64,000 nt of DNA from Hymenobacter sp. DG01 (lineage in GTDB: Bacteria; Bacteroidota; Bacteroidia; Cytophagales; Hymenobacteraceae), in assembly GCF_006352025.1 (NCBI RefSeq), contig NZ_CP040936.1:3288001-3352000 (forward strand), in the 5' to 3' direction. This document shows positions 8,557-55,439 of the stretch, one piece after another. Both the position numbers and the translations under genes were made by a program. The notes under the pieces are model-generated. The model made no database searches, had not been told where the DNA came from, and saw only the letters and a list, made by a program, of their open reading frames with translations. The stretch's first letter is position 1; each line of letters opens with the position of its first letter.

Positions 8557-9804
8557 TTAGAAAGCGTAGTTCAGGCCAATGCCCGGAATCACGATGTTGG
8601 TTTTGTAAGTACCGGCAATGCGGTCGGTGGTGCCGTTGTTGAGCAGTTCCTGCTGGGTTTCGGTACGCTTGCGGATGCTCACGTACTGGGTTGAAATATC
8701 AACGCCAAACTTGCCGAAGCTGTAGGAAGCGCCCACGGTACCGCTAATACGGTCATTGTCGGGAGTTTCGGGGGTGAGGTAGCCCTCCGGTACGGGCGTC
8801 TGGTCGTAGGCGCCGCCGGCGCGCACGGTCAGGCCGCTGGTGAGCTTGTACTGCCCGCCGAGGCGGAAAGTCAGGGCATCCTGGTAGTAGCGTTTCGATT
8901 CGCTGAACGTTTGCCCATTGATCTGCTGATCGAAGTTAAAGCGCAGCACGCGGTACTTGCTCCACTGCGCCAGGCTGGCATCAAAGCCGATGGTCAGGTT
9001 TTCAGTGGGCGTGATGCCGATACCGATGCTGGTAGTGGCAATCAGGGGCAGGGTAGCGCCGAACTTGGTGGCCTGGAAGCGCGAGCTGAACGCGGCCGGA
9101 ACGTTGGTGAACGTCACGTCGCCGTCCTTCACTACCGCATCAATTTTGGAGCGGTAGTTCAGGCCAATGGAAAGCTTATCGGAGGGGCGCAGCATGATGC
9201 CGGCGTTGAAGCCGAACTTGGTTTCGGCTTTGCCGTCTAGCTCAATATGGCCGTAGGAGTCGGGCAGAGGAATATCGCGCTGCAGGTTTACCGAGCCTTG
9301 GGCCAGAATTACCAGGCCCGCCCCGATGCTCAGGTGGTCAGTAATGGCGTAGCTGACGGTAGGCTGCACGAATATCGATTTCAGGTCAATGTCGGTGAGG
9401 GAAGTGCGACCTTCCCAGCCCTCGGCGTACTGCAGCTTGCTGCCGAAGGGTGTGTACACCGCAATACCGGCCCGCCACTTGCCCTCCGTGGGGCCAAAGC
9501 CGGCGTAGAGGTTCAGGGGGGTAGTAACGGAGTTGCGCAGCTGGCGCTGCTGGGTGCCGCCTTCGGCCACGAAAGCATTGCGGGCCAGGGTCGCATTCAC
9601 CCCAACCTGCACGCCCCGATCTTTCACAAACGCCAGGGCGCCCGGGTTGTAGAACATGGCCGCCTGATCCAGCGACAAGCCTACGCCCACGCCGCCCATA
9701 CCGTTATTCTTCTGGCCGGCCAGGGTTACCTGGTAGCCACCCGCCGAAGCTGCCGTACCCGAAAGCAGCGCCCCTCCCGCGAGGAGTAAAGATTTTAAAT
9801 TCAT
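8557..9804 (-). CDS. OmpP1/FadL/TodX-family outer-membrane channel
   Basis: A 415-residue outer-membrane protein. Its signal peptide (MNLKSLLLAGGALLSGTAASA) is followed by the FadL N-terminal hatch region, including the NNGMGGVGVGLSLDQAAMFY-type segment (Asn-Pro-Gly-Ala follows). Repeated barrel strands and a terminal aromatic strand (IVIPGIGLNYAF) complete it. FadL-family channels move hydrophobic molecules such as long-chain fatty acids across the outer membrane. It is the first gene of a two-gene unit with the GDSL lipase lipoprotein. The length is normal for the family. Confidence 0.9.
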   Translation of the reverse strand: MNLKSLLLAGGALLSGTAASAGGYQVTLAGQKNNGMGGVGVGLSLDQAAMFYNPGALAFVKDRGVQVGVNATLARNAFVAEGGTQQRQLRNSVTTPLNLYAGFGPTEGKWRAGIAVYTPFGSKLQYAEGWEGRTSLTDIDLKSIFVQPTVSYAITDHLSIGAGLVILAQGSVNLQRDIPLPDSYGHIELDGKAETKFGFNAGIMLRPSDKLSIGLNYRSKIDAVVKDGDVTFTNVPAAFSSRFQATKFGATLPLIATTSIGIGITPTENLTIGFDASLAQWSKYRVLRFNFDQQINGQTFSESKRYYQDALTFRLGGQYKLTSGLTVRAGGAYDQTPVPEGYLTPETPDNDRISGTVGASYSFGKFGVDISTQYVSIRKRTETQQELLNNGTTDRIAGTYKTNIVIPGIGLNYAF

Positions 9805-46517: not shown

Positions 46518-47873
46518 ATGCCAACCCCCAACCTCGACCCTACCCACCTTACCCGCGACCAGGTTATTCAGGCCCTTCACCAGATGGACCAGCAGGGCCC
46601 GCGCATGCCCCTGAGCACCGTCTATGACCTGGTTTTCAGGGGCAAGCGCTACGCTCCGCGAGCCGTGGCCCAACTGGCGTTCCGGCTGGCGACGGGCGTT
46701 CCGGATGCGCCCTGGCCTCTGCCGGCGGGCGCGCCTACCAACCGGGTGCTGGAGCAGCTGGACTTCACCATTGCCACCAAGCGCCCCACCCTCGAAAACT
46801 CGCCCCTGCTCGATGGCGACGTAGCCGCCCAGGAGCAGATGCAGGAGCTGTACACCGGCCCGGCCCGCGAGGCAGTGCCCACAAAGGCCCGGAAACCCGG
46901 CCGCCCTACCCCTGCCGAGGCCCCAAACGAACCGGCAACGCCGGAGACTTCGTCCGCGCAGGTGCAGGAGCCCGCGCCTGCTTATGCGCTACCCCCACCG
47001 GAACCCTATGGCCGTCCGCAGGCCCTGGCAGAGCTGTTTATTTCGGAAGAAAAGCTGGATGCGGCTCTCGCGGCCCTGCGCCGCCGCCGCAACCTCATTC
47101 TGCAGGGGCCGCCAGGTACGGGCAAAACCTTCCTGGCCCGCCGCCTTGCCTGGCTGGAGCTGGGCGCTACCGATGCGGCCCGCGTAGAGCTAGTGCAGTT
47201 TCACCCCAGCTATAGCTATGAGGATTTTGTGCAAGGCTTCCGGCCGGATGGCACCGGTGGCTTTCGGCTGCAGGATGGTATTCTGGTGGATTTCTGCCAG
47301 CGCGCCGCCCAAGACCCGGAACGGCCTTATTTCCTGCTGATTGACGAGCTGAACCGCGGCAACGTGGCCCGCATCTTCGGGGAGCTGCTGCTGCTGCTGG
47401 AGGCCGACAAGCGCGGCCCGGCCCACGCCGTGCGCCTACCCTACGCCCCGGCCGGAAGCTCGCCCTTCTTCGTGCCCGAAAACGTGTATCTCATTGGCAC
47501 CATGAACCTGGCCGACCGCAGCCTGGCCCCCCTGGACTATGCCCTGCGCCGTCGTTTTGCCTTCGTGAGTCTGGAGCCCGAGTTTGGCGCGCCGCTGCAG
47601 GAGTTTCTGGCCGCTCACCAGGTTCCGGCCGCCGTCATCAGCCGCCTCACTACCCGCCTCACGGAGCTAAACCAGGTCATTGCCGACGACCCGGAGCTGG
47701 GCCCCGATTTCTGCCTCGGCCACAGCTACTTCTGCCAGCCGCCTCCTACCCCCGCTGCCGCCCCAAAGTGGCTGCAGCTGATTCTGGAGCAAGAAATTGC
47801 GCCCCTGCTGGACGACTACTGGCTGGACCAACCCGCCAAAGCCAACCAGCAGAAAAAGAAGCTACTGGCCTAA
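46518..47873 (+). CDS. mcrB: McrB-like AAA+ GTPase subunit of a restriction system
   Basis: A 451-residue protein. The N-terminal about 90 residues (QVIQALHQMDQQGPRMPLST, then VFRGKRYAPRAVAQLAFRLATG) resemble the small target-recognition modules fused to predicted modification-dependent restriction ATPases. A Pro/Ala-rich linker (about 110-165) follows. The AAA+ motor begins near 185, with Walker A GPPGTGKT, VELVQFHPSYSYEDFVQGFRP, Walker B LLIDELNRGNVARIFGELLL and the McrB signature IGTMNLADRSLAPLDYALRR. Such motors use GTP to translocate DNA and activate McrC. It is shorter than many McrB proteins but complete. The McrC partner follows after a repeat element. Confidence 0.9.
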   Translation: MPTPNLDPTHLTRDQVIQALHQMDQQGPRMPLSTVYDLVFRGKRYAPRAVAQLAFRLATGVPDAPWPLPAGAPTNRVLEQLDFTIATKRPTLENSPLLDGDVAAQEQMQELYTGPAREAVPTKARKPGRPTPAEAPNEPATPETSSAQVQEPAPAYALPPPEPYGRPQALAELFISEEKLDAALAALRRRRNLILQGPPGTGKTFLARRLAWLELGATDAARVELVQFHPSYSYEDFVQGFRPDGTGGFRLQDGILVDFCQRAAQDPERPYFLLIDELNRGNVARIFGELLLLLEADKRGPAHAVRLPYAPAGSSPFFVPENVYLIGTMNLADRSLAPLDYALRRRFAFVSLEPEFGAPLQEFLAAHQVPAAVISRLTTRLTELNQVIADDPELGPDFCLGHSYFCQPPPTPAAAPKWLQLILEQEIAPLLDDYWLDQPAKANQQKKKLLA

Positions 47874-47969: not shown

Positions 47970-49001
47970 ATGATTCCTATCCAGAACCTCTACTACCTGC
48001 TATGCTACGCCTGGAACCGGCTGCCGGAGCGGGCAGAGCTGCTGGCTACGGAAGCCACCACGTTTCATCGGCCCCTGGAGCTGCTCACGCACGTACTCCT
48101 TACTGCCACCCGGCGGCAGCTGCGCCAGGGCCTGCCGGTGGCGTATGCGGAGCGCACAGAGGAGCTACCAGAGCTGCGGGGTCGGGTGCAGCTGGCCCCC
48201 ACCCTCAGCCGCGACCTACTGCGGCGCGGGCGGGTAGTTTGCCAGTTCGATGAGCTGGGGCCCGATACACCGCTCACGCGCCTGCTGCTGGGCACCTTGC
48301 AGCAGCTCGGTCGCACCCGCAGTCTGCCGCTGGCCCTGCGCCACGAGGTGCGGGCTTTGCTGCGCCGCTTTCCGGTGGCAGTACAGCCCGAGCCGCCCAC
48401 TGCCGCTACCCTGCGCGCCGTGCGCCGCCTGCGCCCTACCGGTTCCGCCGGCTTCCTGCTGAGCGTGTGTGAGCTGATCTACCAGAGTGCCCTCCCTTCC
48501 CCGGAGGCGGCAGGCCCCACCCGCTTCCGCGACTTCCGCCGCGACGAGCAGCTGATGGCCCGCATTTTCGAGCAGTTCGTGCGCAACTTTTACCGGCTGG
48601 AGCAACGCCGGTTTCGGGTGCTGAGCGAGACGATTCAGTGGCAGGCCGAAGCTGAGGCGCCAGACGCGCTGGGCCTGCTACCTACCATGATTACCGATAC
48701 CTCCCTGGAAAGCCCGGAGCGGAAAATCATTCTGGATACTAAGTACTACGCGGCGGCGCTCAAACCCCGCTACAACCAGCAGAAGCTGATTTCGCCCCAC
48801 CTCTACCAACTCTACGCCTACCTCCAGAACCAGCCCAAAACCCCGGACCAGCAGCTGGAGGGCATCTTGTTGTACCCGGCCGCTACCCAGGCCCTGGATG
48901 TGCGCTACAGCCTGGGCGGGCACCCCGTACGCATTGTTACGCTGGACCTTAGCCAGCCCTGGCCCCACATAGCCGCCGCGCTTTTAAGGTTGATTGATTA
49001 A
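47970..49001 (+). CDS. mcrC: McrC-family restriction endonuclease subunit
   Basis: A 343-residue McrC. The N-terminus has the family start MIPIQNLYYLLCYAWNRLPE, and internal LRGRVQLAPTLSRDLLRRG is the conserved DNA- or McrB-contact region. The PD-(D/E)xK nuclease motif is near the C-terminus: MITDTSLES, then KIILDTKYY, with the Asp-Thr-Lys triad. Together with the preceding ATPase it should cut foreign or modified DNA, as in McrBC and related type IV systems. The modification recognised depends on the unusual N-terminal module of the ATPase. Confidence 0.9.
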   Translation: MIPIQNLYYLLCYAWNRLPERAELLATEATTFHRPLELLTHVLLTATRRQLRQGLPVAYAERTEELPELRGRVQLAPTLSRDLLRRGRVVCQFDELGPDTPLTRLLLGTLQQLGRTRSLPLALRHEVRALLRRFPVAVQPEPPTAATLRAVRRLRPTGSAGFLLSVCELIYQSALPSPEAAGPTRFRDFRRDEQLMARIFEQFVRNFYRLEQRRFRVLSETIQWQAEAEAPDALGLLPTMITDTSLESPERKIILDTKYYAAALKPRYNQQKLISPHLYQLYAYLQNQPKTPDQQLEGILLYPAATQALDVRYSLGGHPVRIVTLDLSQPWPHIAAALLRLID

Positions 49002-49143: not shown

Positions 49144-50793
49144 TTGAAACGACGCGACTTCGTGGGGCTGACTGGCCTCGCTACCGGGGCCATGTTTCTG
49201 CCCTCGGTTCCGGGCTTCGGCGGCGAGCTGATAGACCCTGCCCGCCTGCTCGAACAGGTGGACCCGGCCATCAAAAAACGCCTGGCCGACGCGGCCCTGA
49301 ACGCGGCCAGATCGGCGGGCGCCACCTACGCCGACGTGCGCATCGGGCGCTACCTGAACCAGAGCATCTTCACCCGCGAAAAGCAGGTGCAAAACATTGC
49401 CAACGGGGAAAGCTACGGGGCGGGCATTCGGGTTATTGCCAACGGCACCTGGGGCTTCGCGGCCACCAATACGGTTACCGAAGCGGGCATGGCCAAAGCC
49501 GCTCAGCTGGCCGTGCAGATTGCCAAAGCCAACGCCAAAGTGCAGAAGGAGCCCGTAAAGCTGGCTCCGCAGAAAGGCTACGGTGAGGTTTCGTGGAAAA
49601 CCCCGATTCAGGTAAACGCCTTCGAGGTACCCATTAAAGACAAGGTGGATCTGCTGCTGGCCGCTAACGCCAAGGCCCTCGACAACGGCGCCAACTTCGT
49701 CAACTCCGCTCTGTTCCAAATCAACGAGCAGAAGTACTTTGCCTCCACCGACGGCTCCTACATCGACCAGGATGTGCACCGCATCTGGCCGACGCTGGGT
49801 GTAACGGCCATCGACCGGGCCAGCGGCAAGTTCCGCACCCGGGAGGCCCTCAGCTCGCCTATGGGCATGGGCTACGAGTACATGCAGCCCAAAGCGCAGG
49901 ACAAAATTGCCGGTCCCGCCGGCACGGGCCTGGTAGGCTACAAGTACAGCTACGATATCCTGGAAGATGCTACCTTGGCCGCCAAGCAGGCCAAGGAGAA
50001 AATTACCGCTAAGTCGGTAACTCCTGGCAAATTTGACCTAGTGCTGGACCCCAACCACCTGGGCCTGACCATCCACGAAACCATCGGCCACGCTACTGAG
50101 CTGGACCGTGTGCTGGGCTACGAGGCCAACTACGCCGGCACCTCCTTCGCGACCCAGGAGTGGAAAGCCAAGAATCAGCCCTACGGCTCCAAACTTGTCA
50201 ACATCGTGGCCGATAAGCTGCAGCCCGGCTCCCTGGGCGCGGTGGGTTACGACGACGAAGGCGTGAAAACCAAGCAGTGGGACATCATTAAGGATGGCAA
50301 GCTGGTGGACTACCAGAAAATCCGGGACCAGGCGCACATTGTGGGCCAAAACGAATCGGATGGCTGCTGCTATTCGCAGTCGTGGGAAGATGTGCAGTTC
50401 CAGCGCATGGCTAACATCAGCCTCAAGCCGGGCACCGAGAAAATGAGCGTGGATCAAATGATCAGCAACGTGGACAAAGGCATCTACATTGCCGGCCGCG
50501 GCTCCTTCTCTATTGACCAGCAGCGCTACAACTCCCAGTTTGGGGGCACGGTGTTCTACGCCATCGAGAAAGGCAAGATTGCCGGCATGCTCGAAGACGT
50601 AGCTTATCAGACCAACACGGTAGAATTCTGGAACAGCTGCTCCGCCATCTGCGACCAGAACGACTACCGCCTGTTCGGCTCCTTCTTCGACGGCAAGGGC
50701 CAGCCCCCACAGGTATCGGCCGTGAGCCACGGCTCCGCCACTACCCGGTTCAACGCCGTGAACGTCATCAACACTGCCCGCAAAATTGGATAA
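49144..50793 (+). CDS. tldD: TldD-family metalloprotease with Tat signal (copy 1)
   Basis: A 549-residue TldD. It begins at TTG with a twin-arginine signal (MKRRDFVGLTGLATGAMFLP); the start is supported because the paralogue at 52461 has the same TTG and RRDFVG. The zinc motif HETIGH (His311, Glu312, His316) is followed by ATELDRVLG as in TldD. GQNESDGCCYSQSW and the C-terminal AISTA-like region are present. TldD and TldE form a protease that cleaves unstructured peptides, for example microcin B17 precursor and CcdA. A Tat leader implies export of the folded, metal-loaded enzyme. It forms a pair with the TldE gene at 50968. Confidence 0.92.
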   Translation: MKRRDFVGLTGLATGAMFLPSVPGFGGELIDPARLLEQVDPAIKKRLADAALNAARSAGATYADVRIGRYLNQSIFTREKQVQNIANGESYGAGIRVIANGTWGFAATNTVTEAGMAKAAQLAVQIAKANAKVQKEPVKLAPQKGYGEVSWKTPIQVNAFEVPIKDKVDLLLAANAKALDNGANFVNSALFQINEQKYFASTDGSYIDQDVHRIWPTLGVTAIDRASGKFRTREALSSPMGMGYEYMQPKAQDKIAGPAGTGLVGYKYSYDILEDATLAAKQAKEKITAKSVTPGKFDLVLDPNHLGLTIHETIGHATELDRVLGYEANYAGTSFATQEWKAKNQPYGSKLVNIVADKLQPGSLGAVGYDDEGVKTKQWDIIKDGKLVDYQKIRDQAHIVGQNESDGCCYSQSWEDVQFQRMANISLKPGTEKMSVDQMISNVDKGIYIAGRGSFSIDQQRYNSQFGGTVFYAIEKGKIAGMLEDVAYQTNTVEFWNSCSAICDQNDYRLFGSFFDGKGQPPQVSAVSHGSATTRFNAVNVINTARKIG

Positions 50794-50798
50794 CAGCC

Positions 50799-50944
50799 GC
50801 CTCACCCCCTAGCCCCCTCTCCGGGGGAGAGGAGGGACTAGTTTCTAGTTTTTAGCTCTGGCAGTACAGCTACCACTATTATCTAGAATTTAGCTCTAGA
50901 ACTAGTTCTCCCTCTCCCCCGGAGAGGGGGCTAGGGGGTGAGGC
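50799..50944. repeat. 146-bp inverted-repeat element (family E) between tldD1 and tldE1
   Basis: The outer arms (about 37 nt) begin GCCTCACCCCCTAGCCCCCT and end as the complementary AGGGGGCTAGGGGGTGAGGC. Inside are weaker ACTAGTTTCTAG-type complementary segments. The paralogous tldD2-tldE2 junction lacks it and has only 3 nt between genes. Confidence 0.82.
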
Positions 50945-50967
50945 AAACCATCAGCATATCAACCCAT

Positions 50968-52302
50968 ATGGCAATACTTTCTCAAACCGAAGCCCAGGCT
51001 ATCCTGAAAAAGGTGCTGAGCTTCAGCAAAGCCGACGAGTGCGAAGCCACGCTCAACGGCCAGACGGGCGGCAACGTGCGCTCGGCCCGCAACGCCATCA
51101 GCACTAGTGGCGGCATCGATAACGTGGCTCTCACGGTCGAGTCGCGGTTCGGCAAACGCTCGGGGGTAGCCACCTGCAACCAGTTCGACGACGCTACCCT
51201 GCGCAACTGCGTGCAACGGGCTGAGGAAATTGCCCGCCTCGCCCCGGAAAGCCCCGAGTACATGCCCCTGCTGGGCCCCCAGAAGTACCTGGCCTCGCCG
51301 GGCAGCTTCTCGAAAAGCACCGCCGACATTACGCCCGACTACCGCGCCACCCAGGTGGGCGCCAGCATGAAGCTCTGCGACGAAAAGAAGCTGACTTCCG
51401 CAGCCTTCCTGAACGATGCGGCTGGCTTTGTGGCTAAGCGCAACAGCAAGGGCCTCGAAGCCTACCAGCAGGTATCAGGCCTGGAGTTCAGCATCACGGT
51501 GCGCACCCCGGACGGTACCGGCTCAGGCTACGCCACTGCCGACTACAACGACGCCAGCAAGTTCGACGCCCGCCGCCTGACCCAGATTGCCGCCGACAAA
51601 GCCGCCGGCTCGCGCAATGCCCAGGCCCTGGAGCCCGGCAAGTACACCGTTATTTTGGAGCCCGCCGCCCTGGTGGCTAACACCGATGCCTCCTTGCTGG
51701 CGGCCCTGATGGGTGCATTGGATGCGCGTAACGCCGATGAAGGCCGCTCTTTCCTGAGCAAAAAAGGAGGTGGCAACCGCAAAGGTGAAAAGCTGTTCGA
51801 CGAGCGGGTAACCATCTACTCCGACCCCACGAACCCCGAAATTGCGGACCTCACCTTCTCGGGTGACGGGCGCCCCCAGCAGAAGATTACCTGGATTGAG
51901 AAGGGGGTAGTGAAAAACCTCTACACCTCGCGCTACTGGGCTCAGAAAGCGGGTATCCCCGACATTCCGCGCCCCGGCGGCTGGATTATGGAAGGCGGCA
52001 CCCAAAGCACCGCCGACCTCATCAAGGGTACCCAGCGCGGCATTCTGGTTACGCGCCTGTGGTACATCCGCCCCGTTGACCCCCAGACGCTGCTCTACAC
52101 CGGCCTGACCCGCGACGGAACCTTCTACATTGAGAACGGCAAAATCAAGCACCCGGTGAAAAACTTCCGCTTCAACGAGTCGCCGATTATCATGCTCAAC
52201 AACTTGGAGGCGATTGGCAAGCCGGTACGGGTAGGCGGCAATCTGGTGCCCCCGCTCAAGATTCGGGACTTCACGTTTACGAGCCTTTCCGACGCGGTAT
52301 AG
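50968..52302 (+). CDS. tldE: TldE/PmbA-family partner protein (copy 1)
   Basis: A 444-residue TldE (PmbA). It starts MAILSQTEAQAILKKVL, without any signal peptide, and lacks the HExxxH motif of TldD, as is normal for TldE. Family segments include SARNAISTSGGIDNVALTVE, VTRLWYIRPVDPQTLLYTGLT-like text near residue 365 and the C-terminal RVGGNLVPPLKIRDF. TldE makes a heterodimer with TldD that forms the peptide tunnel. The ATG at 50968 matches the paralogue (MAILSKDES). The absence of a leader while its partner has a Tat leader is notable. Confidence 0.92.
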   Translation: MAILSQTEAQAILKKVLSFSKADECEATLNGQTGGNVRSARNAISTSGGIDNVALTVESRFGKRSGVATCNQFDDATLRNCVQRAEEIARLAPESPEYMPLLGPQKYLASPGSFSKSTADITPDYRATQVGASMKLCDEKKLTSAAFLNDAAGFVAKRNSKGLEAYQQVSGLEFSITVRTPDGTGSGYATADYNDASKFDARRLTQIAADKAAGSRNAQALEPGKYTVILEPAALVANTDASLLAALMGALDARNADEGRSFLSKKGGGNRKGEKLFDERVTIYSDPTNPEIADLTFSGDGRPQQKITWIEKGVVKNLYTSRYWAQKAGIPDIPRPGGWIMEGGTQSTADLIKGTQRGILVTRLWYIRPVDPQTLLYTGLTRDGTFYIENGKIKHPVKNFRFNESPIIMLNNLEAIGKPVRVGGNLVPPLKIRDFTFTSLSDAV

Positions 52303-52326
52303 CCTAGCACTTACCGCGGAGTTTAT

Positions 52327-52366
52327 GCAAACCCGCTTGGCCCTTGCCGGGCGGGTTTTGCTTTTT
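52327..52366 (+). terminator. Rho-independent terminator of the first tldDE pair
   Basis: Stem GCAAACCCGC / GCGGGTTTTGC with a small bulge and 14-nt loop, then TTTTT. The second pair is therefore probably transcribed from its own promoter. Confidence 0.8.
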
Positions 52367-52460
52367 CCTTTCATATAGTTGAGTGCTCTGATGGTGGCCT
52401 GCTAGGCTCCGCTTCTGGGTGCTTTCTTGACAAGCTTCTCCACTTCCAACTCCTACTCCT

Positions 52461-54110
52461 TTGAACAGACGTGATTTTGTGGGCGTAACTGGCCTGGCGG
52501 CCGGGGCGCTCTGGCTACCTTCGCTGCCCAGCCTGGCTGGCAACCCCGTTGACCCGGCTAGCTTTCTGGAGGGGGTAGATGTAGCCGTGAAAAAGCGCCT
52601 CTCCGACGCGGCCCTGAACGCGGCCAAATCGGCCGGTGCTACCTACGCCGACGTGCGCATTGGGCGCTACCTCAACCAGGGCGTATTTACCCGCGAGAAG
52701 CAGGTGCAGAACATCGTCAACTCCGAGAGCTACGGGGCGGGCATTCGGGTTATTGCCAACGGTACCTGGGGCTTCGCGGCCACCAACCAGGTTACGGAGG
52801 CCGGCATGGCTAAAGCCGCTCAGCTGGCCGTGCAGATTGCCAAAGCCAACTCCAAGGTGCAGAAGGAGCAGGTAAAGCTAGCTCCCCAGAAAGGCTACGG
52901 CGAAGTTTCGTGGAAGGCTCCCATCAAGCAGAATGCTTTTGAAGTGCCCATCAAGGACAAGGTGGATTTGCTATTGGCTACCAACGCCAAGGCCATGGAA
53001 AACGGCGCTTCCTTCGTGAATTCGGTGCTGTTTCAGGTAAACGAGCAGAAGTACTTTGCCTCTACCGACGGCTCCTACATCGACCAGGACATTCACCGCA
53101 TTTTCCCCACGTTTGGGGTAACGGTGGTGGACCGCAGCTCCGGCAAGTTCCGGAGCCGGCAGGCCCTGAGCTCGCCCATGGGCATGGGCTACGAGTACCT
53201 CACACCCAAGGCCGAGGACAAGGTAGCGGGCCCGCAAGGCTCCGATGTGGTGGGCTACAAGTACAGCTACGACATGCTGGAGGACGCCGCCCGCGCTGCC
53301 AAGCAAGCCAAGGAGAAAATCACGGCTAAGTCGGTGACGCCCGGCAAGTACGACCTGGTGCTCGACCCCCATCACCTGGGCCTGACCATCCACGAGTCGG
53401 TAGGTCACCCGTTGGAGCTGGACCGCGTGCTGGGCTATGAGGCTAACTACGCCGGTACTTCCTTCGCTACCATGGAATGGAAAGCTAAGGGCCAGCCTTA
53501 CGGCTCGAAGCTCGTCAACATTGTAGCCGACAAGCTGCAGCCCGGCTCCCTGGGCGCGGTGGGTTACGACGACGAAGGCGTGAAAACCAAGCAGTGGGAC
53601 CTGATCAAAAACGGCATCCTGGTCGATTACGAGAAGATCCGCGACCAGGCGCACATTGTTGGTCAGAACGAGTCGGATGGCTGCTGCTACTCCCAATCGT
53701 GGCAGGACGTGCAGTTCCAGCGCATGCCGAACGTGAGCCTACGCCCCGGCACCGAAAAGATGAGCGTGGACCAGATGATTGCGGGCGTGGACAAGGGCAT
53801 CTACATAGCCGGCAACGGTTCCTTCTCTATTGACCAACAACGCTACAACTCCCAGTTCGGCGGGCAGGTATTCTACGCCATCGAGAAGGGTAAAATTGCC
53901 GGCATGCTCGAGGACGTCGCCTACCAGACCAACACGCTGGAGTTCTGGAATAGCTGCGCGGCGGTTTGCGACCAGTCGGATTACCGATTCGCGGGCTTCT
54001 TCAACGACGGCAAGGGCCAGCCCAGCCAGAGCTCCGCGGTAAGCCACGGCTCCAGCACTACCCGCTTCAACGGCGTGAATGTTATCAACACCGCCCGCAA
54101 AATCGGATAA
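52461..54110 (+). CDS. tldD: TldD-family metalloprotease with Tat signal (copy 2)
   Basis: A 549-residue TldD, the same length as copy 1 and, by eye, over 80% identical after the signal peptide. TTG start, Tat signal MNRRDFVGVTGLAAGALWLP, zinc motif HESVGH (His311, Glu312, His316) followed by PLELDRVLG, and the shared GQNESDGCCYSQSW segment. Differences cluster in the signal peptide and in a few surface positions such as HPLE for HATE next to the zinc site. It is separated from the following tldE copy by only 3 nt, presumably the ancestral arrangement. Confidence 0.92.
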   Translation: MNRRDFVGVTGLAAGALWLPSLPSLAGNPVDPASFLEGVDVAVKKRLSDAALNAAKSAGATYADVRIGRYLNQGVFTREKQVQNIVNSESYGAGIRVIANGTWGFAATNQVTEAGMAKAAQLAVQIAKANSKVQKEQVKLAPQKGYGEVSWKAPIKQNAFEVPIKDKVDLLLATNAKAMENGASFVNSVLFQVNEQKYFASTDGSYIDQDIHRIFPTFGVTVVDRSSGKFRSRQALSSPMGMGYEYLTPKAEDKVAGPQGSDVVGYKYSYDMLEDAARAAKQAKEKITAKSVTPGKYDLVLDPHHLGLTIHESVGHPLELDRVLGYEANYAGTSFATMEWKAKGQPYGSKLVNIVADKLQPGSLGAVGYDDEGVKTKQWDLIKNGILVDYEKIRDQAHIVGQNESDGCCYSQSWQDVQFQRMPNVSLRPGTEKMSVDQMIAGVDKGIYIAGNGSFSIDQQRYNSQFGGQVFYAIEKGKIAGMLEDVAYQTNTLEFWNSCAAVCDQSDYRFAGFFNDGKGQPSQSSAVSHGSSTTRFNGVNVINTARKIG

Positions 54111-54113
54111 GCT

Positions 54114-55439
54114 ATGGCCATTCTTTCCAAAGACGAGTCGCAGGCTATCCTGAAGAAGGTGGTGAGCTTCACTACTGCTGATGAGTGCCAGGCTACCCTG
54201 CAGGGCCGCACCAGCGGCAACGTGCGATACGCCCGTAACTCCGTGAGCACCGCCGGGTCCCGCGACAATGTGTCGTTGGTGGTGGAGGCGAGGTTTGGCA
54301 AGCGGGCGGGGGTAGCCACCTGCAACCAGTTCGACGATGCTACCCTGCGCCGCTGCGTGCAACGGGCCGAGGAAATTGCCCGTCTCGCCCCCGAGGACCC
54401 CGAATACATGCCCTTGCTGGGCCCCCAGCAGTACCTCACGCCGGTAAGCTACGCAGCCAGTACCGCTGGTATTACCCCCGACTTCCGGGCCCAGGCCGCC
54501 GGCGACAGTATTGCGCTGTGCGCCGCCAAGCAGCTGACTGCCGCAGGTTACCTCGAAGATGGCGCTTCTTTCCTGGCCCTGCGCAACAACAAAGGTCTGG
54601 AAGCCTACCAGCAAAGCACCAACCTCGACTTCTCGGTGACGGTGCGCACCCCGGACGGTACCGGTTCAGGCTACGCCGTGGCCGATTTCACCGATGCCAG
54701 CAAGTTCAACGCCAAGGCCCTGACCCAGATTGCGGCCGACAAAGCTGCCGGCTCGCGCAATGCCAAAGCCCTGGAGCCCGGCAAGTACACCGTTATTCTA
54801 GAGCCTGCCGCTCTGGTTTCCGATGAAGGTTTGCTTAACAACCTGGTGTATAACTTCGGAGCCCGCGAGGCCGATGAGGGACGCTCCTTCCTGAGCAAAA
54901 AGGGGGGCGGCAACCGTACCGGCGAAAAGCTGTTCGACCCACGCATTACCATCTACTCCGATCCGCTGAATGCCCAAGCTCCGGGCGGCGTGTTTGATGG
55001 GGAAGGGCTGCCGGTGAAGCGCATGAACTGGGTGGAAAAGGGCGTGGTCAAGAATCTGTACTACACCCGCTACTGGGCCCAGAAAACGGGCCAGCAGCCC
55101 ACGGCTTTTTCTGGCAACTTCATCATGGAAGGGGGCACCCAAAGCGTGCAGGACCTGATCAAGAGCACGGCTAAGGGCATTCTGGTTACGCGCCTGTGGT
55201 ACATTCGCGACGTGGACCCCCAAACGCTGCTGTTCACAGGCCTGACCCGTGACGGAACCTTCTACATCGAGAACGGTAAGATTAAGCACCCGGTGAAGAA
55301 CTTCCGCTTCAATGAAAGCCCCGTGATTATGCTCAACAACATCGAGGCCATCGGGCGGCCCGTGCGGTTGGGCGGCAACCTGGTGCCCCCGCTTAAAATT
55401 CGGGACTTCACCTTCACCAGCCTCTCCGACGCGGTGTAG
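54114..55439 (+). CDS. tldE: TldE/PmbA-family partner protein (copy 2)
   Basis: A 441-residue TldE starting MAILSKDESQAILKKVV, with no signal peptide and no metal motif. It parallels copy 1 throughout (ARNSVSTAGSRDNVSLVVE; the C-terminal block VPPLKIRDFTFTSLSDAV is identical). Divergence is greatest around residues 235-290, a region likely to line the heterodimer tunnel, so the two pairs may differ in peptide specificity; this is an inference. It is almost certainly cotranscribed with tldD copy 2. A terminator follows. Confidence 0.92.
   Translation: MAILSKDESQAILKKVVSFTTADECQATLQGRTSGNVRYARNSVSTAGSRDNVSLVVEARFGKRAGVATCNQFDDATLRRCVQRAEEIARLAPEDPEYMPLLGPQQYLTPVSYAASTAGITPDFRAQAAGDSIALCAAKQLTAAGYLEDGASFLALRNNKGLEAYQQSTNLDFSVTVRTPDGTGSGYAVADFTDASKFNAKALTQIAADKAAGSRNAKALEPGKYTVILEPAALVSDEGLLNNLVYNFGAREADEGRSFLSKKGGGNRTGEKLFDPRITIYSDPLNAQAPGGVFDGEGLPVKRMNWVEKGVVKNLYYTRYWAQKTGQQPTAFSGNFIMEGGTQSVQDLIKSTAKGILVTRLWYIRDVDPQTLLFTGLTRDGTFYIENGKIKHPVKNFRFNESPVIMLNNIEAIGRPVRLGGNLVPPLKIRDFTFTSLSDAV

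Follow-up and report, generated by a model that had tools for sequence, protein, structure and literature searches.

Twin-arginine signals on TldD beside leaderless TldE suggest hitch-hiker export of a heterodimeric metallopeptidase in Bacteroidota

The window analyzed here is a stretch of 64,000 nucleotides from Hymenobacter sp. DG01 (contig NZ_CP040936.1, positions 3,288,001 to 3,352,000), and its positions 49144-55439 hold four genes of the same direction in the order TldD1-TldE1-TldD2-TldE2. Both TldD genes code for a catalytic-type subunit of 549 amino acids with a TTG start (TldD1, 49144..50793; TldD2, 52461..54110; both on the + strand), and the two proteins are 84% identical. The TldE proteins, encoded on the same strand, have an ATG start and no leader and begin with MAILSQ (TldE1, 50971..52302, 443 amino acids) or MAILSK (TldE2, 54114..55439, 441 amino acids); the ATG of TldE2 lies 3 nucleotides past the stop codon of TldD2. 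The closest named locus is that of H. latericoloratus, with a TldD identity of 99%. Based on the distribution of twin-arginine translocation (Tat) signals over the two subunits, we propose that TldE probably leaves the cytoplasm as a hitch-hiker on TldD.

PmbA/TldD Pfam domains were found in all four proteins, and each of them matched PF19289 far above the cut-off. PF01523, PF19290 and PF19289 were all matched by both TldDs, while TldE1 stayed under the cut-off for domain 1 (18.4 vs 20.9 bits) and TldE2 for domain 2 (19.7 vs 20.9 bits). The metal-binding motif HExxxH occurs at residues 311-316 of TldD1 as HETIGH (50074..50091, + strand) and of TldD2 as HESVGH (53391..53408, + strand); a sequence search of TldE1 and TldE2 did not find it in either protein. 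Residues H311, E312 and H316 of TldD1 are invariant across a 37-row TldD alignment. The third metal ligand is probably Asp516 of TldD1 (50689..50691, + strand) and the corresponding Asp of TldD2 (54006-54008, + strand), both within DGKGQP, at the place of Cys454 in E. coli TldD. DGKGQP is present in 234 of 240 Tat-clade TldDs, and in an alignment read by eye CGKGEP takes this position in several relatives; Asp can replace Cys, according to PMC5810440. The AlphaFold2 model of TldD1 (mean predicted local distance difference test score, pLDDT, of 73) had its best Foldseek match in E. coli TldD (5njc_C, E 8.5e-35), with residues 1-26 at a pLDDT below 50 and outside the enzyme fold. The TldE1 model (pLDDT 46) was set aside as too poor. 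Taken together, the assignment of the locus to two heterodimeric metallopeptidases of the TldD/TldE type is well supported, and by analogy with E. coli TldD/E the subunits presumably form heterodimers. As a side observation, locus L240 (7623-9242, minus strand) holds a TldD with a twin-arginine signal and without HExxxH; a leaderless TldE comes next, and the two may form an exported pair that is non-catalytic.

TldD1 (MKRRDFVGLTGLATGAMFLPSVPGFGG) and TldD2 (MNRRDFVGVTGLAAGALWLPSLPSLAG) begin with M-[KN]-R-R-D-F-V-G. The preliminary description had read these N-termini as convincing twin-arginine signals, KRRDFVG and NRRDFVG followed by a hydrophobic stretch, and we confirmed both motifs, the stretch behind them being weakly hydrophobic. 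The putative signals cover residues 1-26 in TldD1 (49144..49221, + strand, MKRRDFVGLTGLATGAMFLPSVPGFG) and in TldD2 (52461..52538, + strand, MNRRDFVGVTGLAAGALWLPSLPSLA), and in both cases the motif is conserved in relatives. The TTG codon of both genes is the first ATG, GTG or TTG past the upstream in-frame stop; the later in-frame starts, a GTG at residue 7 of both TldDs and an ATG at residue 17 of TldD1, would leave out the twin arginine (RR).

Conservation of the motif was followed in 240 related Tat-clade TldDs from 126 loci, using simple home-made rules for Tat and Sec signals (a motif plus an uncharged or hydrophobic stretch). RR stands at the twin-arginine position in 233 of these proteins and RK in six; the six RK-type TldDs are found in L108, L109, L115 and L117. 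The remaining one (L035) is frameshifted with the RR codons still in the DNA, and its frameshift near the TldD start (9231-9330) may instead be a sequencing error. From the 239 TldDs accepted by the Tat rule we obtained 210 distinct N-termini, all with the first R at residue 3 and with F at residue 6, and with R (97%) or K (3%) at the second position. These positions are fixed while adjacent ones vary, and the stretch behind RR.F is weakly hydrophobic and rich in Gly, Ala and Leu. M-x-R-[RK]-x-F (residues 3-6) together with an uncharged stretch was met in all 210 TldD N-termini, compared with 2 of 391 other open reading frames (ORFs) of at least 350 amino acids in the fetched stretches; the motif is thus commoner in TldDs than expected by chance. 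The TldDs of L132 and L239 also trip the RR rule, yet they are members of the Sec clade described below. In total, 495 family ORFs were collected, 56 of which lie outside the set of 240 TldDs and 199 TldEs as fragments at stretch ends or members of other subfamilies.

The motif extends well beyond close relatives. In a second TldD subfamily of about 24% identity, RR is present in 109 proteins out of 120, while the remaining 11 look truncated or begun downstream, and R3, R4 and F6 are invariant in a joint alignment of 37 rows, which were chosen from motif carriers. Some relatives combine the signal with a lipobox, the short motif ending in Cys that marks bacterial lipoproteins: lipobox-like [LV]-[SG]-[SG]-C follows the RR signal in P0310, P0340 and P0353 of the second subfamily and also in L250, L251 (genomes G648 and G444) and L270 (G700), each of the latter three beside a leaderless TldE. 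As a lipobox is useful only on an exported protein, these relatives point to TldD export. In NCBI's own naming, P0340 and P0357 are proteins with a twin-arginine translocation signal, and P0353, a distant relative, scores above the Pfam TAT_signal cut-off (24.3 vs 22.7). At E<=1, the NCBI Tat model TIGR01409 matched 12 of the 37 TldD relatives chosen for comparison and none of 22 TldE relatives; Pfam TAT_signal matched 1 of the 37. The Hymenobacter genome itself contains one TatC and two genes of the TatA/B/E family. Curated Tat-model scores are weak in the main clade, and it is conservation and the lipoboxes that carry the Tat call; with a near-invariant RR signal down to about 24% identity, lipoboxes in relatives and a genome equipped with Tat genes, Tat export of TldD is likely and, as far as sequence can tell, well supported.

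TldE presents a different picture. The preliminary description had noted that both copies start with MAILS and lack a leader, and we confirmed this; the in-frame extension of TldE1 reaches only a GTG at 50938 (MRQTISISTHMAILS) and gains no signal. Among 199 TldEs, 197 received neither a Tat nor a Sec call from any start at or upstream of the N-terminus, and the two that were flagged are spurious (L031, through sequence upstream of MAILT; L169, through KK inside TldE). Positive genomes were fetched in full for 39 of 40 in a phylum sample (G131 with the short locus only), for 37 of 44 in an order sample and for part of 40 in a sample of the class of G156; the role of the G325 TldD, which lacks HExxxH, was assigned by hand. 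A Tat-type TldD was found in 80 genomes (RR in 76, RR and RK in three, RK only in one), and TldE was leaderless in all 80, the Sec flags on four of their TldEs (G122, G183, G196, G275) arising from start codons inside TldE. In G125, where TldD and TldE lie on separate contigs, TldE is leaderless all the same. A leaderless TldD accompanied a leaderless TldE in six further genomes and stood without TldE in the fetched stretch in 16, some of these being fragments or having TldE elsewhere. Not one of the 102 genomes paired a leaderless TldD with a signalled TldE. The pattern, whose conservation the preliminary description had considered within Hymenobacteraceae, reaches other classes of the GTDB phylum.

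We also searched for a TldD that could serve a TldE left behind in the cytoplasm. The Hymenobacter genome yielded four PF19289 matches, all at the locus, and no untagged TldD; in the phylum sample of 158 genomes, 16 are of the Tat type, and each of their 53 family hits could be located in the fetched stretches or the window, again without an untagged TldD. As far as the family model can see, a TldE that stayed in the cytosol would lack a TldD to join. TatC presence or absence was tried as a test of coupling and dropped, as it offered no contrast (TatC in 157 of 158 and in 26 of 26 genomes); G009, the sole genome in which TatC was not matched, does not belong to the TldD/E-positive group.

The TldD signal appears to have switched while TldE stayed constant. 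In the tree, leaderless TldDs of G322 and G329 stand beside RR-TldDs of G343, G156 and G300; the TldEs of G322, G343, G156 and G300 cluster together and are all leaderless, that of G329 lying outside the fetched set. A second case is the family of G378, probably Bacteroidaceae, in which 11 genomes have an RR-TldD and six genomes of another genus a leaderless one. TldE is leaderless in 16 of these 17 genomes, that is, wherever a TldE was seen, and the G378 TldE matches B. thetaiotaomicron 1VPB over its full length (838 bits). TatC is present in all 17, so its loss does not explain the difference between RR-type and leaderless TldDs; the leaderless TldDs of genus g354 sit in TatC-bearing genomes. 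If TldE were unable to ride along, each gain of a Tat signal on TldD would have split an obligate enzyme. In outline, the trees of D and E mirror one another.

A contrast is provided by a separate clade in the tree with the motif HEIFGH (HEKAYH in G105), which carries Sec-type signals on both subunits. All 13 genomes with unfused pairs tag both, by rule for 12 TldDs and 11 TldEs, with the other three (D of G109; E of G105 and G043) missed by the rule and read by eye. G086 and G311 each have one long ORF (1153 and 1200 amino acids, respectively) that resembles a D-E fusion led by a single Sec signal, and two PF19289 stretches in the former confirm the fusion. These putative natural fusions, from two genera, are located at L141 6027-9485 and L238 4351-7950. 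The Sec pathway passes unfolded chains one at a time, whereas Tat transports folded complexes, so one tag would be enough only for Tat. The contrast between one tag in the Tat clade and two tags or a fusion in the Sec clade is the pattern that hitch-hiking predicts.

These observations are probably best explained by a pair that folds before export. Each TldD/TldE pair would assemble and bind its metal in the cytoplasm, and the folded heterodimer would cross the inner membrane whole via Tat, steered by the RR signal of TldD and with TldE as hitch-hiker; peptide trimming would then take place outside the cytoplasm. What makes co-export of TldE the best explanation is that its leader is absent in all 80 genomes with a Tat-type TldD, that we found no untagged TldD, and that the Sec family tags or fuses both subunits. 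In anatomy, with a signal on one subunit in all 80 genomes, the pair would belong with the Tat hitch-hikers. Statements in PMC5810440 and PMC4273604 fit this reading: the former describes the E. coli TldD/TldE heterodimer as nearly spherical and about 65 A across, with activity only when both proteins are present and with an unstable TldD homodimer, and the latter gives 20-70 A for Tat substrates, states that Tat also carries hitch-hiking complexes and reports that in HybO/HybC and PaoABC one subunit bears the signal for the passage and is retained if a partner is missing. Of the proposal in the preliminary description that TldD carries TldE through Tat, the export of TldD is thus well supported, and the co-export of TldE stands as a prediction.

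Several points weigh against hitch-hiking. The 80 genomes represent about two TldD lineages and not 80 independent cases, and the Sec contrast is one lineage, where D and E branch as sister groups and may owe both tags to one tagged ancestor. E. coli TldD and TldE each also homodimerize in solution, and a Sulfolobus TldD homodimer is reported to be active (both in PMC5810440), so separate fates of the subunits are possible. Some loci also have more TldDs than TldEs (e.g. DDE, DEDD), though some of these arrays may be cut by stretch ends. Such data would suit a TldD that is exported alone by Tat and acts as a homodimer outside the cytoplasm, with TldE in another, cytosolic role. We regard this as unlikely: the same source ties E. 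coli activity to both subunits and calls the TldD homodimer unstable, TldE is present in all 80 Tat-type genomes, its tree mirrors that of TldD in outline, and no untagged partner for a cytosolic TldE turned up among the family hits. Even less credible is an export of TldE by a leaderless route of its own, for which we found no supporting point. TldE is leaderless also beside leaderless TldDs (6 of 6 genomes), so no feature of its N-terminus tracks export, and we consider this route very improbable.

Other objections concern the signal itself. TIGR01409 gives TldD1 12.8 bits, below its cut-off of 16.7, and Pfam TAT_signal had no match to TldD1 or TldD2 at E<=5. Cleavage sites are poor: there is no clear A-x-A, most TldDs show no canonical signal-peptidase I site, and the small residue plus Gln that the Bacteroidetes Q-rule (PMC5837995) leads one to expect is present in only 18 of the 210 N-termini. 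RK replaces RR in 6 of 240 TldDs, G108 having RK copies only. Some database entries start downstream of RR, which applies to 10 TldDs among the 120 nearest homologues and to 11 among 120 of the second subfamily, so the TldD start is not experimentally fixed. Together with the TTG starts and the relatives with a leaderless TldD, the weak scores, RK variants and downstream annotations could mean that the segment is no export signal, but a membrane tether or regulatory tail of a cytoplasmic enzyme, or that the true start lies downstream. The conservation of R, R/K and F amid varying neighbours, the combination of RR with a lipobox in relatives and the NCBI naming of P0340 and P0357 speak against this, and we judge it slightly less probable still than an export of TldD alone. 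The poor cleavage sites would suit an RR segment that acts as a Tat signal anchor and stays uncleaved, so that the exported pair is held on the outside of the inner membrane. Six relatives are predicted to be membrane-anchored by other means, through their lipobox; on the other hand, small residues are frequent at a plausible -1 position (Gly, Ala or Ser in about 85% at position 23 after the first R). This is a version of hitch-hiker export, with which its probability overlaps, and we hold it as a tentative possibility only.

The two subunits also differ in their start codons. TTG is the start of 150 of 239 Tat-clade TldDs, 114 of which have no other upstream start codon, and of 39 of 73 TldDs from loci outside the named set and the genus of the window, whereas 197 of 199 TldEs start with ATG; the TldE count leans to ATG because an ATG up to 8 residues away from the aligned start was preferred, while the TldD count has no such preference. 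In 12 Tat-TldDs of the Ignavibacteria-class type the nearest start is ATG. This difference may lead to a surplus of TldE, which would favour complete dimers and make it rare for TldD to leave alone. This idea fits a remark in a part of PMC5810440 that steady TldE and transient TldD would yield active complex. A wider scenario, to which we give about even chances, is that Bacteroidota and relatives exported TldD/E at least twice, by Tat with one tag on TldD and the heterodimer crossing whole, and by Sec with two tags or a fusion, with TTG/ATG tuning limiting lone TldD. Hitch-hiking would then be standard for an obligate heterodimeric peptidase and not a peculiarity of redox enzymes, and would serve peptide trimming in the periplasm.

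Regarding the surroundings of the genes, the gap between TldD1 and TldE1 is mostly taken up by an inverted repeat (50799-50843 / 50900-50944; 45 nucleotides, 93% complementary, 56-nucleotide loop). Its core is present in 9 of 277 loci, three of which are other cuts of the same genome, and it may be a dispersed palindromic element. Directly upstream of TldD1 lie an AAA_5 ATPase (46518-47873) and an McrBC-family protein (47970-49001), apparently an McrBC-like restriction pair. Unequal tandem arrays, for example with three TldDs and two TldEs or with two TldDs and three TldEs, were seen at L107, L110, L115, L116 and L160.

If TldE does hitch-hike, the few natural Tat hitch-hikers gain a metallopeptidase pair, and many Bacteroidota, among them apparently a genus near or identical to Bacteroides, would have a promiscuous peptide-trimming enzyme in their envelope. 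The family holds a built-in comparison, with one tag for Tat, two tags or a fusion for Sec and no tag in the cytosol. Genetic tools exist for laboratory Bacteroidota, and the solved relative of the TldE half (1VPB) helps to make hitch-hiking directly testable. TldD/E and Tat hitch-hiking are each already known. Their combination did not turn up: among the matches listed in a literature search on TldD/PmbA export and Bacteroidetes Tat, judged by title, start of the abstract and term counts, there was no paper on Tat export of TldD/E.

E. coli TldD is a cytosolic protein without an export signal. E. coli TldD and TldE (PmbA; PDB 5NJ5-5NJF) resemble the Hymenobacter pairs in their Pfam domains, in HExxxH being confined to D and in the predicted fold of TldD1; they differ in that the alignment starts only at residue 62 of TldD1 and residue 49 of E. 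coli TldD, and in the Cys at the place of the probable Asp ligand. B. thetaiotaomicron BT3649 (1VPB, annotated as putative modulator of DNA gyrase) is a leaderless TldE of the type that stands beside an RR-TldD in 11 related genomes, but its structure was solved for TldE alone. The HEIFGH-type Sec pairs are likewise TldD/E-like (PF19289) and predicted to exit the cytoplasm, yet they form a separate clade and use a Sec signal of their own per subunit or a fusion. A parallel in export is offered by the E. coli hitch-hikers HybO/HybC (hydrogenase 2) and PaoABC, with a Tat signal on one subunit and none on the partner, and the diameter of E. coli TldD/E (65 A) fits the 20-70 A range of Tat substrates given in a part of PMC4273604. 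Those systems are redox enzymes with experimentally shown co-translocation, whereas TldD/E is a metallopeptidase pair for which we infer it.

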